IMG/VR virus record: IMGVR_UViG_3300035162_001077
Location: 1-26,272 of that record
Direction: 5' to 3' (one strand)
DNA: 26,272 bases
Source of the DNA: a virus
Part shown: piece by piece, positions 1,640 through 7,943 of the stretch
Layout: the number at the start of each line of letters is the position of its first letter
How positions within the stretch are numbered: position 1 is the stretch's first letter
The notes under the pieces: generated by a model
Databases searched by the model: none
What the model was told of the DNA's origin: nothing
What the model saw: only the letters and a program-made list of their open reading frames with translations
Program-made: the position numbers and the translations under genes

Positions 1640-2365
1640 ATGAATACAGAACAGACATCGATCAACTTATATGACAATACATACATTGACAACGTTGGGT
1701 TGCCTGCCTATCCATGGCGAGTATCAGCAGGACACAAGTTTGAAGCAATGGGTTCAATGGCCTTCTTCCAATCACAGATGAACAATCATCATATTGTAAG
1801 ACAGTGCTACAAAGATCAATACATGAGTGTTTCAATGATCCATGGTGAAAGTCATCTGTATGACCTATCCTACAAAATCAATTATAGTGTTGATACTGGT
1901 TCTGATCTTATTAAGAAAACTAAAACACAGATGTTGGTTGAGTTTAAATTATTGACCAATGAATCTTTTAAGAAAAGAGGTTTGGTTGATGGCCTTAAGA
2001 ACATCTTTAGATATAATGATAAATCTAAACGTGCACTTGACTTCTTGCAAAGACATTCAAAAAGCACTGTTGAAAAGTTGAACTTGCTGGTCATTGGTTG
2101 CACCTCCTTTAATTCACAAGAAGTGGTTCAATGTTCAACTGCAAAAGTCTTTGGTCCAATCTGGTGCATTGCATATATGCCAACATCTGAATCACGAAAA
2201 GATCATCCATCAGTGAAGAAGGCCATGGTGATGTTTGATGACTTTGATCAATATGCCCAATGCATCCACAACGCTACAACACCACATCATCTGTTTGACA
2301 TGATTGAGCAAAAGTCAGACTTAAATGAAACGCTTGATTTTATGGAGACTTTCAAACTGCCATGA
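1640..2365 (+). CDS. Unrecognised protein between terminase subunits
   Basis: A 241-residue protein. The ATG at 1640 follows a strong AAAGGAG with 7-base spacing, and the gene ends in an ATGA overlap with the large terminase gene. It is mixed alpha/beta with no signal peptide or membrane segment. Residues 75-103 read as beta strands with acidic residues D85 and D89 followed by VEFK (E101-x-K103). A helix (VDGLKNIFRYNDKSKRALDF) and two hydrophobic strands (KLNLLVIGCTSF; PIWCIAYMP) follow. That order resembles the core of PD-(D/E)XK nucleases, but this is only a motif-level resemblance. Its place between terS and terL suggests a role in DNA processing or packaging. No family was confidently recognised. 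Confidence 0.72.
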   Translation: MNTEQTSINLYDNTYIDNVGLPAYPWRVSAGHKFEAMGSMAFFQSQMNNHHIVRQCYKDQYMSVSMIHGESHLYDLSYKINYSVDTGSDLIKKTKTQMLVEFKLLTNESFKKRGLVDGLKNIFRYNDKSKRALDFLQRHSKSTVEKLNLLVIGCTSFNSQEVVQCSTAKVFGPIWCIAYMPTSESRKDHPSVKKAMVMFDDFDQYAQCIHNATTPHHLFDMIEQKSDLNETLDFMETFKLP

Positions 2366-3732
2366 ACTTAAACTTAAATGAACTACAACAAAACATTGTT
2401 GCTCGAATCAGAAGCCAAGACAAAGTGATTAGCGCGCGGTGTGGGTGGGGATCAGGTAAGACGAGTGGACTAGTGTTTGCTTTGTGGTTCATTAGTCGTA
2501 TACGACCAGGTACATCCTCTCTTTTAGTCACTGACACATCACCTCGATACAGGTCTGTACTTGGTCCTGAAATAGAAAAATGGTTAGGTCCAATAGGTTG
2601 GACTTTCAATGCACTTGAATCAAAATGGTCTGATCCAATCACGGGATCATCAATCTGGTGTAGGTCATACTTTAGACCAGGTACAAGAGAAGCAACCCAT
2701 AATCCACTTGAAGGTTTAAACATCACAAGTGGTGTTGCCTTGATTGATGAATGTCAAACATTCAAGGATGATGAAGTTGCACAAAAAGCACTTGGACGTT
2801 TAAGAAGTGGACCTACTCCCATTATGATATTGGTTGGCTTGCCTGTTGCTGATGCGTGGTGGTGTTCACTTGCAGAAAAAGCAGGATACGAACCTTTGCT
2901 TTTCACTTCCTATGTAAATCAAAACAACTTGAGTGATGAGTGGTTTGAAGCAACCAAGCTATTGCCTGAGGAAGAACGCCTTGCTATGGTGATGAATGAA
3001 CCAAGGCCACCAAGTGGATTGATTTATTCTGAATGGACTGCAAAGCATGTGATCAATGACTTCAAGTATAAACCCACGATGACAGGCCGTATATCTGTAG
3101 ACTGGGGATTCAGAAAACCATCTGTCTTGATCATGGTGTATGATGAGGAAAGACAAGCAACAATCATTGTGCATGAAATCAATCCACAGGAGTGTACAAT
3201 TGATGAACTCGCAAGGATGATCTTATTAATAGCATGGCCACGTTCATTGATGAATCAAGCACCAGGTCCAAGGATATGGTTAGATTCAGGTGTAGCAGAT
3301 AAAGCGGGTGCAGCTCGCAATGATCAAACAGGACGTTCTGCATTTAGAGCAATGAAGAAGTTACCACATGAAGGTGGAATAGGTGTGCCCTTAAAGTTCA
3401 CCACTGATCCTGTTATGACCAATGTGTTGAACGGCATCCAAAAAGTGAAACGTGCATTTGCTCAAAAGAAATATCTTTGTACAACTGAGGTGTGGATGCG
3501 TGGTGAAAAGTCAATAGGCAATTCATTCAGAAAAGCAATACTGTCATATGGGTGGAGTCCAACAAAAGATGAACCAAAGAAAGACGGGCGTGAGGATCCA
3601 CTTGACGCATTAAGATATGATTGTCTGTTTCATTACTGGTCAGAAATGAGTATGCCAACAATCACATCACGTCAATCCAAGGACCGTGGCAATACTCGAA
3701 TCAGAAGAGAAAGAAAGTTTAGAGGATTCTGA
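2362..3732 (+). CDS. terL: Terminase large subunit
   Basis: A 456-residue packaging motor and nuclease. The N-terminal ATPase has Walker A CGWGSGKT (residues 27-34, catalytic K33) and Walker B GVALIDE (124-130, with E130 as catalytic glutamate). A likely coupling motif lies near MILVGLP (155-161). The C-terminal RNase H-like nuclease shows the expected acidic residues: D247 in ISVDWGF, D308 in IWLDSGVAD and D415 in EDPLDALRYD. The length fits the family. The Walker A includes a tryptophan, as in some Mu gp28-like and marine phage terminases. It hydrolyses ATP to pump DNA through the portal and cuts the concatemer. It starts 4 bases inside the preceding gene and overlaps the nuclease gene by one base. 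Confidence 0.95.
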   Translation: MNLNLNELQQNIVARIRSQDKVISARCGWGSGKTSGLVFALWFISRIRPGTSSLLVTDTSPRYRSVLGPEIEKWLGPIGWTFNALESKWSDPITGSSIWCRSYFRPGTREATHNPLEGLNITSGVALIDECQTFKDDEVAQKALGRLRSGPTPIMILVGLPVADAWWCSLAEKAGYEPLLFTSYVNQNNLSDEWFEATKLLPEEERLAMVMNEPRPPSGLIYSEWTAKHVINDFKYKPTMTGRISVDWGFRKPSVLIMVYDEERQATIIVHEINPQECTIDELARMILLIAWPRSLMNQAPGPRIWLDSGVADKAGAARNDQTGRSAFRAMKKLPHEGGIGVPLKFTTDPVMTNVLNGIQKVKRAFAQKKYLCTTEVWMRGEKSIGNSFRKAILSYGWSPTKDEPKKDGREDPLDALRYDCLFHYWSEMSMPTITSRQSKDRGNTRIRRERKFRGF

Positions 3733-4694
3733 TGATTGATAAAGAAAGCATTATTGAAAGAACAAGACAGCTAAGAAAGAAGAACTTTACATTCAAACAG
3801 ATTGTGAACATCTGTGAAAGAGAAGGTCTTTTAAAGAAGTCAAGACATTCAAAAAGAACAGTTCGAAGTTGGTTTTTAAATGCATATCCAAATGAAAAAA
3901 AAAACAATACAGAAGTTGAAAAGATTAATCCAAAGTACAAGGACCTTGTTCAAGAGGTCTACATTAAACACTTGACTGATATGGGATACACACCGCTTGA
4001 AGTCAAAGCAGAATTGAAGCATCTGTACTTTATACAAGATCAGTCATCCAAAGATATAAAGATTGGAAGAACAGGCGATGTCAACAGAAGACTAAAGGAG
4101 ATCAAGACAGGATCAAACCGCACCTATCTTCTTTTATATGCATTTAATAATTTAGGACACTTAGAGAAGAGTGTGCATTATGCACTCTCAAAATATAGGA
4201 TTCAATATGAATGGTTCAGTAAAGACTGTTTAGAGGATGCCTTATCATTTTTAGAAGAGTATGGAGTAGAGGACGCTGGATTTGATTGTTGGGTCAAAGA
4301 AGCTGACCTTCAACTTTATGAAGACATTTCATATTTTGTTTTAATCTCCATTGCCTTTGGGTTCATTTGGAGCAAAGCAGATCTTGAACACACTTTCAAG
4401 ATGACCAGTCTTGATGTCGACTCTTTAATGATGAACATTCAAAGCAAAGATAAAATCCACATCATTGGACGCTTCTTCTCAATGTTGATTGATGAAGATA
4501 AACTAGAATTCACTAAATACAGTTTTACAGACATCGAAGATATAAACATTCAAACAGGATTCTATACTTATGCTAGTCAACCCTTGATGATGAGCGAAAC
4601 AATAAGAAGAGAACTTAATGAAATCAAAATTGAGTTGAAACATATGATCATTAATAAAATGAACTCTTCAAAACAAGTTTGTCTTTTTGGATAA
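3732..4694 (+). CDS. HTH + GIY-YIG (T5orf172-type) nuclease
   Basis: A 320-residue protein. Residues 5-50 are basic and helical with an HTH-like pattern (FTFKQIVNICEREGLL, then KRTVRSWFLNAYP). Residues 97-178 match the T5orf172/MUG113 branch of the GIY-YIG nucleases: HLYFI (97-101) and IKIGRTGDVNRRL (109-121) are the two strands and the catalytic arginine region, LEKSVHYALS (144-153) holds the metal-binding glutamate E145, and YEWF (159-162) closes the domain. The C-terminal 140 residues were not recognised. The gene overlaps terL by one base (TGATG) with AGAGGA upstream, so it is translationally coupled. It looks more AT-rich than its neighbours and has a run of ten A (3895-3904) after the HTH. 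It is probably a selfish or competition nuclease, but could be a packaging accessory. Confidence 0.82.
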   Translation: MIDKESIIERTRQLRKKNFTFKQIVNICEREGLLKKSRHSKRTVRSWFLNAYPNEKKNNTEVEKINPKYKDLVQEVYIKHLTDMGYTPLEVKAELKHLYFIQDQSSKDIKIGRTGDVNRRLKEIKTGSNRTYLLLYAFNNLGHLEKSVHYALSKYRIQYEWFSKDCLEDALSFLEEYGVEDAGFDCWVKEADLQLYEDISYFVLISIAFGFIWSKADLEHTFKMTSLDVDSLMMNIQSKDKIHIIGRFFSMLIDEDKLEFTKYSFTDIEDINIQTGFYTYASQPLMMSETIRRELNEIKIELKHMIINKMNSSKQVCLFG

Positions 4695-4698
4695 ATCC

Positions 4699-4793
4699 AA
4701 GCTTCAAACTAGACAGGTGAATCAGGTTATCTACTCTCTTTAAATAAATAGTAATATAAGTTTAAAGAAAAAAAGTTGTCTAGTTTGAAGCTT
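4699..4793. repeat. Perfect 17-bp inverted repeat with nested repeat
   Basis: AAGCTTCAAACTAGACA (4699-4715) is exactly complementary to TGTCTAGTTTGAAGCTT (4777-4793), with a 61-base AT-rich interval. Inside it a second pair, TCTTTAAA (4737-4744) and TTTAAAGA (4761-4768), is nested almost centrally. The repeat begins 4 bases after the nuclease stop codon and ends 28 bases before the late promoter candidate. A U-tract is absent, so it is not an ordinary intrinsic terminator. Possible roles are a packaging (cos/pac) or recombination site near the terminase, a nuclease target, a replication start or a messenger-stabilising 3' structure. Confidence 0.9.
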
Positions 4794-4821
4794 AAGTACT
4801 CTATATCAAAAATTTAAATCA

Positions 4822-4850
4822 TTGACAATGTGAACTATATTTCACACAAT
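4822..4850 (+). promoter_or_regulatory. Candidate late promoter for head genes
   Basis: A perfect -35 box TTGACA (4822-4827) stands 17 bases before CACAAT (4845-4850), which matches 4/6 of the -10 box. It lies in the only gene-free gap of the + strand block (4695-4882), just upstream of the portal gene and therefore of about 21 kb of co-directional structural genes. Confidence 0.55.
4829..4846. promoter_or_regulatory. Dyad operator TGTGAA-N6-TTCACA
   Basis: A perfect 6-bp dyad (TGTGAA 4829-4834; TTCACA 4841-4846) fills the spacer of the candidate late promoter and touches its -10 box. A protein bound here would block RNA polymerase. It resembles a CRP site, but the TGTGA and TCACA halves are 8 rather than 6 bases apart. 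The ribbon-helix-helix protein at 303 is one candidate ligand, by inference only. Confidence 0.5.
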
Positions 4851-4882
4851 ATAGAAAAACATCCATCCATGATTGTGCACAT

Positions 4883-6286
4883 ATGATTGATGATAAAAGA
4901 GATGAACCCCACATGAAGGCATTGTTGCCACGATTCAGAACCCGTGGTATCACAGGCACGCAACTGTCTGGTGGTAAGATCCTAGGCAAAGAACGCAACC
5001 CAAAACTGACAGGTTTAAATTGGATTCGAGAAGCAGAAGAGATGCTTCAAACTGATCCTGTCGTCAGACGTTCATGGCACATGTTAAGACAGACGCTCTT
5101 AAGTGCAACATGGCGTTTTATACCTGGTGTTGAGAATGATCCTGTATCAGAAGAACTTGCACGATATTGTAATGAAGCATATGGATTTGATGGGTATTCA
5201 GGTCAAATGGCTTCATGCTTTGAGGATCAACTTACTTATCTATGGGAGTTCGTTACACTTGGTTACAGATATGCAGAAGAGATCTACAAGGTAGGACCAG
5301 ATTCAGAGGGTAAGGTTCGAGTGTGGCTTGACTACTATGCAGACCGTGAACCAAGTGCACACAACAGGTGGTTGTCTCAAGATGGTCAACACTTGGATGG
5401 AGTCCTCCAAAATGTGGTTGGTGTTACATACACACCTGAACCTATACCTGCCAACAAACTCCTTTTATTGACACTCAATAGAACAGGGTCAAACTTTGAA
5501 GGCGTTGGAATGTTACGGCCTGTTTGGTGGTGGTGGAGAACAAAGCAACGTGTTTCTAACTTGATGTGTGTAGGTCTTGAACGTTGGGCAATTCCAACAC
5601 CCAAGGTCAAAGTTGACCGTTCACAAGCTGAACAACAGGGTTTGACTGATGCAGACCTATCAGTGATGATTGATGATGCAGCAGACCAAGCACAAGCATT
5701 CTTAGCAACTGAACAATCATACTTGGTTGAATCACCTGTCATTCAGTTTGATGCGTATGCAATGACACCAAATCTTTATTCACAAGGTCCATTGGACATC
5801 ATCAAAGAATGTGACAATCAAATCAGTCAAGCATTCTTAGCCCAATTTGCAAACCTTGGTATTTCAGACACGGGTTCAAGATCAGTGGGTGAAGTGCATC
5901 TTTCTATGTTTAGACGTGCTGCAATTAATCTGTGTGATATTGTTGCAAGTCAAATCAGTGGACCTGATAGGCGTGGTGGTGGAACCGTTGGGCGTTTGAT
6001 CCGTTGGAACTATGGTTACATTGATCCATCTAAATTACCACGCTTAACACATACAGGTCTTGATACTGATGACTTGGCAGAATCACTTGGTGTTTTACCT
6101 GGTCTTGTTCAAGCAGGATTATTGACTCCTGACAATGACCTTGAACGTGCAATTCGTGAAAGACTTGGTGCAGGTGAGTTACCTGAAATTGCAGAAAGAT
6201 CACCACAAGAAAGATCAATTCAAAAAGGCGGCGGTGTGGCTGCACTTGCAGAAACCTTAATCAGAAGGAAAAAAACCAATGGTTAA
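4883..6286 (+). CDS. Portal protein, Mu gp29-like (DUF935 type)
   Basis: A 467-residue portal that forms the dodecameric ring through which DNA enters and leaves the head. It shows features of Mu gp29/DUF935 portals: a helical N-terminal part (LNWIREAEEMLQTDPVVRRS, then WHMLRQTLLSATWRF, residues about 45-78), LTYLWEFVTLGYRYAEEIYK (about 117-136), the diagnostic FEGVGMLRPVWWWWRTKQR (about 206-224), and a C-terminal part with FANLGISDTGSRSVGEVH. The start is uncertain: the ATG at 4883 lacks a clear Shine-Dalgarno, and an in-frame ATG at 4913 (MKALLPRF) is nearly as plausible. It is the first gene after the promoter at 4822 and overlaps the protease gene by 8 bases. Confidence 0.88.
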   Translation: MIDDKRDEPHMKALLPRFRTRGITGTQLSGGKILGKERNPKLTGLNWIREAEEMLQTDPVVRRSWHMLRQTLLSATWRFIPGVENDPVSEELARYCNEAYGFDGYSGQMASCFEDQLTYLWEFVTLGYRYAEEIYKVGPDSEGKVRVWLDYYADREPSAHNRWLSQDGQHLDGVLQNVVGVTYTPEPIPANKLLLLTLNRTGSNFEGVGMLRPVWWWWRTKQRVSNLMCVGLERWAIPTPKVKVDRSQAEQQGLTDADLSVMIDDAADQAQAFLATEQSYLVESPVIQFDAYAMTPNLYSQGPLDIIKECDNQISQAFLAQFANLGISDTGSRSVGEVHLSMFRRAAINLCDIVASQISGPDRRGGGTVGRLIRWNYGYIDPSKLPRLTHTGLDTDDLAESLGVLPGLVQAGLLTPDNDLERAIRERLGAGELPEIAERSPQERSIQKGGGVAALAETLIRRKKTNG

Positions 6287-7943
6287 GAAGATCAGAGTGA
6301 AGAAGAAACGCACCCAACGCACTGACAAAGAAACTAAAAGTGAATTGCTAGCTATTCCTGATAAGTATTCACACATTGACTTTGTACCTCCCAAGGGAGT
6401 TCAAGCAGCTGCCAAACGTGCCCTTGAAGTTCGAGCAACTAAACCACCTTCACAACGTGGTGGTACAGAAGTTGGACTTGCTCGTGCAAGAGACTTATCC
6501 AACGGTAAACAACTTAGTCCTGATACTGTCAGAAGAATGTTGAATTATTTCACACGCCATGAAGTCGATAAACAAGGGTCCACTTGGTCTGATCAAGGCA
6601 AAGGTTGGCAAGCTTGGAATTTATGGGGTGGTGATGCAGGATATTCATATGCACGAAAAACGGTAAAACAAATGAACACAGCTGATTCAAAAGCAACGTC
6701 ATTGACTGCATATGCAGAAGCATTGCAGTTGAATGAAATTAGAACGTATGAAGTGCCCAATGGTTTAACTATTGGCAGACCGTTCAAAACTCTCTCAATG
6801 GGTCAAGTCTCTTCACGCATGAATGGTGCACCCCTTGGTGATGCCATTGACCATGAACTGTTAAATGAAATGGTTCGTGTGTTTAACGTGCGTAAAGAAT
6901 CTGATCCTGTAATCATTGATTGGCAACATGCTACAAGCCCTTTCCAAGATGGTATTCAAGGACCTGATGCGGGTAATGCATTGGGTGTCATTGTAGACCT
7001 CGAACTTAAGGATGATGGTTTGTATGCAGTGCCTGCATATAATGAGAGGGGCCTTAAAGTAGTTAATGAAGCTGGTGGAATACTTTGGTCTAGTCCTGAG
7101 TATTTACACGGTGAAATATTCACGCGTGATGGTGGTGATAAAGTTGGTGATGCTCAACTGTTAGCAATCACATTGACCCCACGGCCTGCACAACAATCTG
7201 ACAAAATAGACAGAGTCACACTAAAGGAGAATTTGAACATGTATTCAAAAGACCAGTTGGATGCGATGGATCATAACGATCTTGTAGACTTTGCAACTCG
7301 TGAGCAAGATCTGAATCAACAAAAAGATGACATGATCAAGCAACTAGAGAAGCAAGTCAAAACCATGAATGAAGACAATGAATCTAAGATTGCACAAGAC
7401 AATGAAGAATTGTTAGAGCATGACAAAGATGAAAAACTTGGTGAGCATTCAGATGATGAAAAGATGAATGAGCACTATGACAAAAAAGAAGAAGATGAAG
7501 ACAAGGACAAGAAAATGAAAGAACATCAAAAGATGAGTGAATCACTTGCAAGTCCTGCTTTGCTTTCTGAAATCCAAATGTTGAGAGAACAAGTTTCACA
7601 ATTGCGTCAAGACAAGATCGAAGTTGAAAAGTCTTCTGCAGTGAAACAATTGCTAAGTGAAGGCAAGATCTCACCTAATGAGGAAAGCGTTGCTCGTGAA
7701 GCGTATGACATGAAACTTGAAGGGCGTGACTCTTTTTGGGCAATGTTTAGCGAACGTCAAAACAACAGCGTTGTACCAATGAATACCATTGGACATGGTG
7801 CAAGTGGTCAAGAGATCACCAAAGAAACAATCAATCTTAAGATTAAGAAATTAAGTGAAGATAAAGGACTTAGTTACAGTCAAGCACTGACTGAGTTCAG
7901 AACTTCAAATCCTTCTGAATATAACCAAGCGTATGGGGTTTAA
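6279..7943 (+). CDS. Prohead protease-scaffold fusion, Mu I-like
   Basis: A 554-residue, three-part protein. Residues 1-20 are very basic. Residues about 35-132 form a small helical domain (VPPKGVQAAAKRALEV, GGTEVGLARARDLSNGKQLS, LNYFTRH, GWQAWNLWGGDAGYSYARK) found, from memory, in several phage proteases and head proteins. Residues about 155-305 resemble the Mu I-type maturation protease: VIIDWQHAT (candidate catalytic H217), then a beta region with DGLYAVPAYNERG, ILWSSPEY (candidate nucleophile S271 or S272) and LLAITLTPRPAQQ. From residue 321 onward the protein is acidic coiled coil typical of scaffolds. It would cleave itself and the scaffold during capsid maturation. An internal start at 7239 probably makes the scaffold alone. 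Confidence 0.83.
   Translation: MVKKIRVKKKRTQRTDKETKSELLAIPDKYSHIDFVPPKGVQAAAKRALEVRATKPPSQRGGTEVGLARARDLSNGKQLSPDTVRRMLNYFTRHEVDKQGSTWSDQGKGWQAWNLWGGDAGYSYARKTVKQMNTADSKATSLTAYAEALQLNEIRTYEVPNGLTIGRPFKTLSMGQVSSRMNGAPLGDAIDHELLNEMVRVFNVRKESDPVIIDWQHATSPFQDGIQGPDAGNALGVIVDLELKDDGLYAVPAYNERGLKVVNEAGGILWSSPEYLHGEIFTRDGGDKVGDAQLLAITLTPRPAQQSDKIDRVTLKENLNMYSKDQLDAMDHNDLVDFATREQDLNQQKDDMIKQLEKQVKTMNEDNESKIAQDNEELLEHDKDEKLGEHSDDEKMNEHYDKKEEDEDKDKKMKEHQKMSESLASPALLSEIQMLREQVSQLRQDKIEVEKSSAVKQLLSEGKISPNEESVAREAYDMKLEGRDSFWAMFSERQNNSVVPMNTIGHGASGQEITKETINLKIKKLSEDKGLSYSQALTEFRTSNPSEYNQAYGV
7225..7241 (+). promoter_or_regulatory. Internal ribosome binding site and start
   Basis: Inside the protease-scaffold gene, AGGAG (7225-7229, within AAAGGAG) stands 9 bases before an in-frame ATG at 7239. 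It is one of the best Shine-Dalgarno sequences in the window and falls exactly at the protease/scaffold boundary. Confidence 0.75.
7239..7943 (+). CDS. Scaffolding protein (nested in-frame product)
   Basis: Predicted 234-residue product starting at MYSKDQLDAMDHNDL and sharing frame and stop with the protease gene. The product is highly charged and helical. It contains a long coiled coil (about residues 25-55 of this product), a Glu/Asp/Lys/His-rich stretch with repeated EH/DEK motifs (about 60-105), a second coiled coil (LLSEIQMLREQVSQLRQDKI) and a helical C-terminus rich in charged residues that may bind capsid subunits. Nested protease and scaffold genes are well known in lambda (C/Nu3) and Mu (I/Z). 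The free scaffold would fill the prohead core and be degraded or expelled. Evidence is the strong internal Shine-Dalgarno at the domain boundary; the product itself is inferred. Confidence 0.7.
   Translation: MYSKDQLDAMDHNDLVDFATREQDLNQQKDDMIKQLEKQVKTMNEDNESKIAQDNEELLEHDKDEKLGEHSDDEKMNEHYDKKEEDEDKDKKMKEHQKMSESLASPALLSEIQMLREQVSQLRQDKIEVEKSSAVKQLLSEGKISPNEESVAREAYDMKLEGRDSFWAMFSERQNNSVVPMNTIGHGASGQEITKETINLKIKKLSEDKGLSYSQALTEFRTSNPSEYNQAYGV

Follow-up and report, generated by a model that had tools for sequence, protein, structure and literature searches.

Homing-endonuclease-like genes of the T5orf172 type sit at boundaries of genetic exchange, and in 35% of the T5orf172 neighbourhoods surveyed a terminase gene is present (Barth, Dunham and Seed 2023, PMC10448857). 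Equally, Odn of phage ICP1 is a chimeric T5orf172 nuclease which replaces CRISPR-Cas in one locus (PMC8263062, PMC9040626). The locus described here, part of a 26,272-base virus record that was analysed over its full length (hereafter the window), resembles the surveyed genes in that its T5orf172 gene adjoins a terminase gene, is present or absent in otherwise near-identical phages and lies at an exchange boundary; unlike those genes, it shares its slot with DNA methyltransferases and lies next to a candidate RNA gene. As in Odn, the nuclease domain is joined to an N-terminal segment of different origin and alternative cargo is found at one locus, whereas the N-terminal part is a resident phage ORF in place of the RepA-like domain of Odn, the likeness being one of build that is known here from sequence.

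The candidate RNA gene itself can be set beside two kinds of described phage RNA. With phage small regulatory RNA genes as a general class it would share a promoter of its own, paired ends and, in most relatives, a T-run as a putative 3' terminator; unlike these, it has no sequence or structure relative in Rfam 15 and its alleles are exchanged between phages independently of the neighbouring genes. With the packaging RNA of phi29 it would have in common that it is short, paired at its ends and encoded by a tailed phage, here between packaging genes; unlike that RNA, it has neither a family match nor a conserved apical loop, and the terminase type differs. On the evidence below, the locus is most likely a cargo slot between terL and the portal gene which holds a T5orf172 nuclease beside a separate, minus-strand candidate small RNA gene.

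The phage group and its cargo slot

The gene order in the window is ssb, terS, an unknown gene, terL, nuclease, portal (Mu type) and a Mu-type protease, followed by capsid and tail genes, with a full-length TerL of 456 aa. The phage group is uncultivated, with best identities to cultured phages of about 25% for the portal and about 22% for the capsid protein, and no relatives of the group were found in bacterial genomes. Scanning of viral contigs with the nuclease, the portal and terL gave 118 loci with both terL and portal (the window included, some of them overlapping), the records of the relatives being contigs. The features of the slot are:

2362-3732, plus strand: terL, left flank of the cargo slot (phrog_2, E 1.2e-14)
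3732-4694, plus strand: T5orf172 GIY-YIG nuclease gene, 320 aa (Pfam)
4026-4700, plus strand: inserted cargo segment (nuclease body), 675 bp here and 9 bp in relatives L008 and L090
4883-6286, plus strand: portal gene of Mu type, right flank of the cargo slot (Portal_Mu, E 8.9e-26)

As judged from these loci, nucleases and methyltransferases take each other's place between terL and portal, which makes this junction a cargo slot. Close relatives (portal 84-100% identical) carry either the T5orf172 nuclease (the window, L003, L026, L091, L098), an N6/N4 methyltransferase (L084, L085, L089, L101, L029, L096, L018, L099, L023, L031), a C5 methyltransferase (L006, L019, L022, L087, L088) or nothing (L008, L009, L090, L011, L086, L027, L020, L028). 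The cargo of more distant relatives comprises a cyclase-like protein with a second ORF, ThyX with a dCMP deaminase (the latter named from sequence only), DUF3310, a sigma-like protein and a D12 methylase. The cyclase-like gene (PF00211, E 5e-5) and its conserved second ORF are common cargo in a second clade of relatives (L137:6315-7151, L034, L141 and other loci). Further to the right, at the start of the protease gene 3' of the portal gene, L008-type relatives have about 360 extra bases (window 6313-6317; L008:5072-5431).

The C5 methyltransferase cargo genes show a feature of their own, as they are also open over their full length in the +1 frame (315-355 codons in 5 of 5 copies; L088:4337-5563, L019:4478-5752, L087:5713-6774, L022:774-1898, L006:395-1372), a length reached by none of 300 synonymous shuffles. 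The +1-frame product matches PHROG 1008, and phage C75C1 (L181, 1988-3430) has the same layout with 460 codons; the methyltransferase and the second frame are likely a genuine overlapping gene pair.

The nuclease as an insert and a fusion

The GIY-YIG nuclease gene that the initial annotation had recognized is present, its ORF matching T5orf172 (PF10544, E 5.8e-10; 40.0 bits against a Pfam gathering cut-off of 20) and MUG113 (PF13455, E 3.3e-10). In L008 and L090, colinear blocks corresponding to 2301-4025 (94%) and 4701-6317 (96%) flank the insert, and the difference of 675 bp against 9 bp between matching blocks identifies the nuclease, on this comparison, as a clean insert that excludes the repeat and the promoter. 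The mobility suggested at the outset is thereby borne out, as an insert beside the terminase gene, at one site and with clean joints in relatives without the nuclease, a presence/absence pattern of the homing type. The slot nuclease can be assigned to the homing-endonuclease type, as a homing candidate only.

In relatives that lack the nuclease, residues 1-98 of the window protein exist as an ORF of their own, 100 aa long, and the nucleases of other relatives begin alone at residue 95, so that the window protein is recognizable as an in-frame fusion in which a resident N-terminal ORF (98 aa, helical) is joined to an inserted nuclease. The predicted nuclease core is strand-strand-helix-strand-helix at residues 97-155, in a model with a pLDDT of only 64. 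Two side observations concern the same gene. A 22-nt stretch, 95% identical, is common to the nuclease gene (4450-4471) and the start of ssb (464-485), both encoding KIHIIGR (BLAST E 3e-4). Equally, slot nucleases and N6/N4 methyltransferases both end in QLSLF, QVSLF or QVCLFG, like beta-clamp-binding motifs (window 4674-4691, L084:8731-8745, L099:8454-8471).

An inverted repeat maintained by compensatory change

Immediately past the nuclease gene lies a structured segment with the following parts:

4777-4793, minus strand: 5' arm of the terminal stem P1, perfect 17-bp repeat
4699-4715, minus strand: 3' arm of P1; the T-run after this arm is lost in the window (GGATTTATCC)
4737-4768, minus strand: inner hairpin P2 (4761-4768 with 4737-4744), the nested 8-bp repeat of the initial annotation
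4731-4738, minus strand: motif GAGAGTAG, on the 3' side of P2 and extending past it, with hardly any variation among 21 relatives in the alignment
4718-4723, minus strand: motif GATTCA on the unpaired 3' side of the loop, near-invariant in relatives

As had been described, the 17-bp inverted repeat is perfect, starts 4 bases past the nuclease stop codon and encloses the nested 8-bp repeat. With its 61-nt loop it is far beyond chance; the fold z is -6.3 on the plus and -6.7 on the minus strand, and none of the dinucleotide-preserving shuffles reached an equally good fold. A long-range stem is found at the same place in nearly all close relatives, with differing arm sequences. Paired cells amount to 92-95% in the arms of the relatives (n = 21-23), against 53-59% when arms are swapped between phages and 30-43% in slid controls, and three to five kinds of base pair occur at most stem positions. 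In a stem-anchored alignment of 21 relatives, which are not independent and for which this alignment was used in place of an automatic MAFFT one, the covariation score reaches 0.86, 500 arm swaps giving no value above 0.31, and compensatory changes indicating a conserved secondary structure are found; RNAalifold gave no consensus pairs on the automatic MAFFT alignment, as the arms are misaligned there. The initial annotation had held that diverged arms beside a retained gene would mark a chance structure. The arms do diverge, but they do so by compensatory change, so that the structure is, on this alignment, real.

A profile of the inverted-repeat RNA found one copy per phage among the relatives searched, at the terL-portal place only, and a core-motif pattern scan of all viral contigs retrieved the window's clade alone, other matches having no comparable stem. 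Against Rfam 15, phi29 pRNA included, no match in the window rose above the gathering threshold, and matches in the region were at chance level only. The segment GAGAGUAG presumably resembles a stretch of 5S rRNA; 5S rRNA was absent from the permissive Rfam matches in the region.

Strand, promoter and possible terminator of the candidate RNA

The gene that this structure would represent, and its promoter, can be given as follows:

4699-4793, minus strand: candidate small RNA gene of about 95 nt, read from 4793 to 4699, ends paired by the 17-bp stem (covariation, G-U bias, promoter register, T-run of relatives, fold z, profile matches)
4800-4828, minus strand: RNA promoter, -35 TTGTCA (4828-4823), 17 nt, -10 TATAGA (4805-4800), start predicted at about 4793, the stem base

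Where an internal pair is imperfect, it reads as G-U on the minus strand in 17 cells and the other way (A-C) in 2, which corresponds to about 13 distinct events against 1 (counted by hand, among relatives that are not independent). As G-U is tolerated in RNA and a DNA site gives no strand preference, the RNA gene most probably lies on the minus strand. Near the stem end, 6.8 of 11 positions are T on the minus strand against 3.3 for the plus strand (p 1e-4 in a paired test), and in most relatives a run of T5-T9 follows the second arm on the minus strand. This run is lost in the window and its closest relatives, so that the RNA of the window copy may be longer or decaying. No leftward gene that would account for a minus-strand terminator was seen near the stem. 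In L091, L028 and L031 a second hairpin, AATCCTTAACG...CGTTAAGGATT, just beyond the RNA (L091:8091-8161, L028:5663-5733, L031:2011-2080), takes the place of the T-run; in L091, T8 comes after this hairpin on the minus strand, and the hairpin is possibly a separate terminator for the RNA.

In 21 phages of the main clade, a promoter that ends 4-7 nt ahead of the stem scores higher than 94% or more of all other positions, and in both this clade and the second one the predicted start coincides with the 5' end of the structure. With 17-nt spacing, TTGTCA/TATAGA is found in the window (6 nt before the stem), TTGACA/TATAAA in L003, L022 and L027, and TTGACA/TAAATT in L018, L019, L026 and L098. The window's own promoter is modest, its best-scoring register being TTGTCA-19-TAGAGT and not the 17-nt TATAGA register; L014 and L094, the only exceptions in the main clade, have the stem without a recognizable minus-strand promoter.

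The portal promoter and the independence of the parts

On the opposite strand, a promoter-like pair precedes the portal gene:

4822-4850, plus strand: portal promoter TTGACA-17-CACAAT, its -35 overlapping the -35 of the RNA promoter on the opposite strand
4830-4845, plus strand: spacer dyad GTGAACTATATTTCAC, symmetry not kept in relatives

Both the pair and the dyad are present as first described, and they fared differently on comparison. The closest relatives show no change in the -35 and -10, which are conserved within the window's subclade only, and sites of this quality number 3 in the stretch against 1.8 expected by chance; the dyad is replaced by ATGAACTATATTGCAC in several close relatives and, its symmetry being broken there, was rejected as a conserved operator. 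No repeat of the portal promoter was found elsewhere in the window, and apparent second copies in G003 and G008 turned out to be unrelated sequence.

The nuclease, the repeat and the promoter had initially been taken as one unit. In fact, repeat and portal promoter persist in relatives without the nuclease, and repeat alleles combine freely with any cargo, the window's RNA allele being found with a nuclease (L003), an N6/N4 methyltransferase (L084), a C5 methyltransferase (L022) and an empty slot (L027). Between the window and L027 the RNA is 98% identical while terL and portal are 71% and 75% identical and the spacer to the portal gene is unrelated; between the window and L008 the RNA is 75% identical while the flanks are 95-97% identical. 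RNA alleles thus move from phage to phage as one discrete piece of about 95 bp, independently of the cargo. This independent assortment of RNA and cargo excludes that repeat and nuclease are fixed partners; the island as a single mobile unit was rejected on the same ground. On these comparisons, the junction is composed of three independent layers, namely the cargo slot, the inverted repeat or RNA, and the portal promoter.

The same place in a second clade

A second clade, with portals 72-83% identical, has an independent conserved minus-strand promoter motif, TTGTTC-17-TATRTK. With this motif as the sole anchor, a stem was found at the predicted start in 19 of 25 phages (shuffle p <= 0.05), with unrelated arm sequences, so that an RNA gene at the terL-portal place is probably older than the window's clade. 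RNA profile search found no sequence link of the second clade to the first.

Discussion

The structure, its strand, the positions of promoter and terminator, the independence of the cargo and the exchange of alleles have been derived from sequence comparison, and we infer that the RNA is transcribed. A sigma-70-like minus-strand promoter, its -35 overlapping that of the divergent portal promoter, would start transcription at the stem base; the resulting RNA of about 95-110 nt would fold with paired ends, displaying the conserved inner hairpin and a largely unpaired, purine-rich stretch (GAGAGUAG...GAUUCA), and would end, in most relatives, at the T-run directly past the stem. Given such an RNA gene, the chances are about even that its product is a regulatory RNA which acts, most likely in trans, through the conserved stretch. 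For this stretch the best base-pairing sites in phage DNA differ between relatives, and no conserved target was found among them.

The main rival to a regulatory RNA, though rather an unlikely one, is a role in cis only, in which the minus-strand promoter and terminator interfere with the overlapping portal promoter and keep antisense transcription out of cargo and terL, the RNA as such being without a task. The overlap of the divergent -35 elements, the exact coincidence of the RNA end with the 3' end of the cargo gene and the failure to find a conserved target are in line with such interference. On the other hand, a bare terminator needs no loop of 45-75 nt with a conserved inner hairpin and near-invariant GAGAGTAG and GATTC motifs, nor would one expect to see its alleles move from phage to phage.

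A site acting as DNA, which the initial annotation had proposed as nuclease target, resolution site or packaging start (cos/pac), has a precedent in HNH nucleases of the HK97 type that work with terminase at cos (PMC10448857), and the repeat does adjoin terL with a nuclease gene next door. Such a site gives no reason for the strand asymmetry of the imperfect pairs, for the T-run or for the promoter register, which together indicate a minus-strand RNA; the repeat exists without the nuclease, and its arms vary even where the flanks are 95-97% identical, a variation that a site recognized by sequence, whether by nuclease or terminase, should not tolerate, so that this proposal is now very improbable. 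Of still lower probability is a portal-binding packaging RNA comparable to phi29 pRNA, in keeping with which are the paired ends, the similar length and the gene position between terminase and portal, while the alleles could conceivably set packaging specificity. The phi29 pRNA accompanies small ATPases that lack a nuclease, whereas TerL here is of full length; furthermore, the search of Rfam gave no match to pRNA or any other family, and the apical loops are not conserved.

With a regulatory RNA as the preferred reading of the minus-strand gene, a more far-reaching proposal is that the alleles of this RNA gene, of which no description was found in the literature as far as it was covered, are swapped independently of their neighbours as a type-specific determinant in a large uncultivated phage group, for example in superinfection incompatibility or in packaging specificity; this we regard as doubtful. 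The natural occurrence of empty and filled slots makes ideas about homing and counter-restriction testable in these phages, and what appeared to be a DNA repeat becomes a candidate for a new family of phage RNA, with its structure kept and at the same place in two clades.
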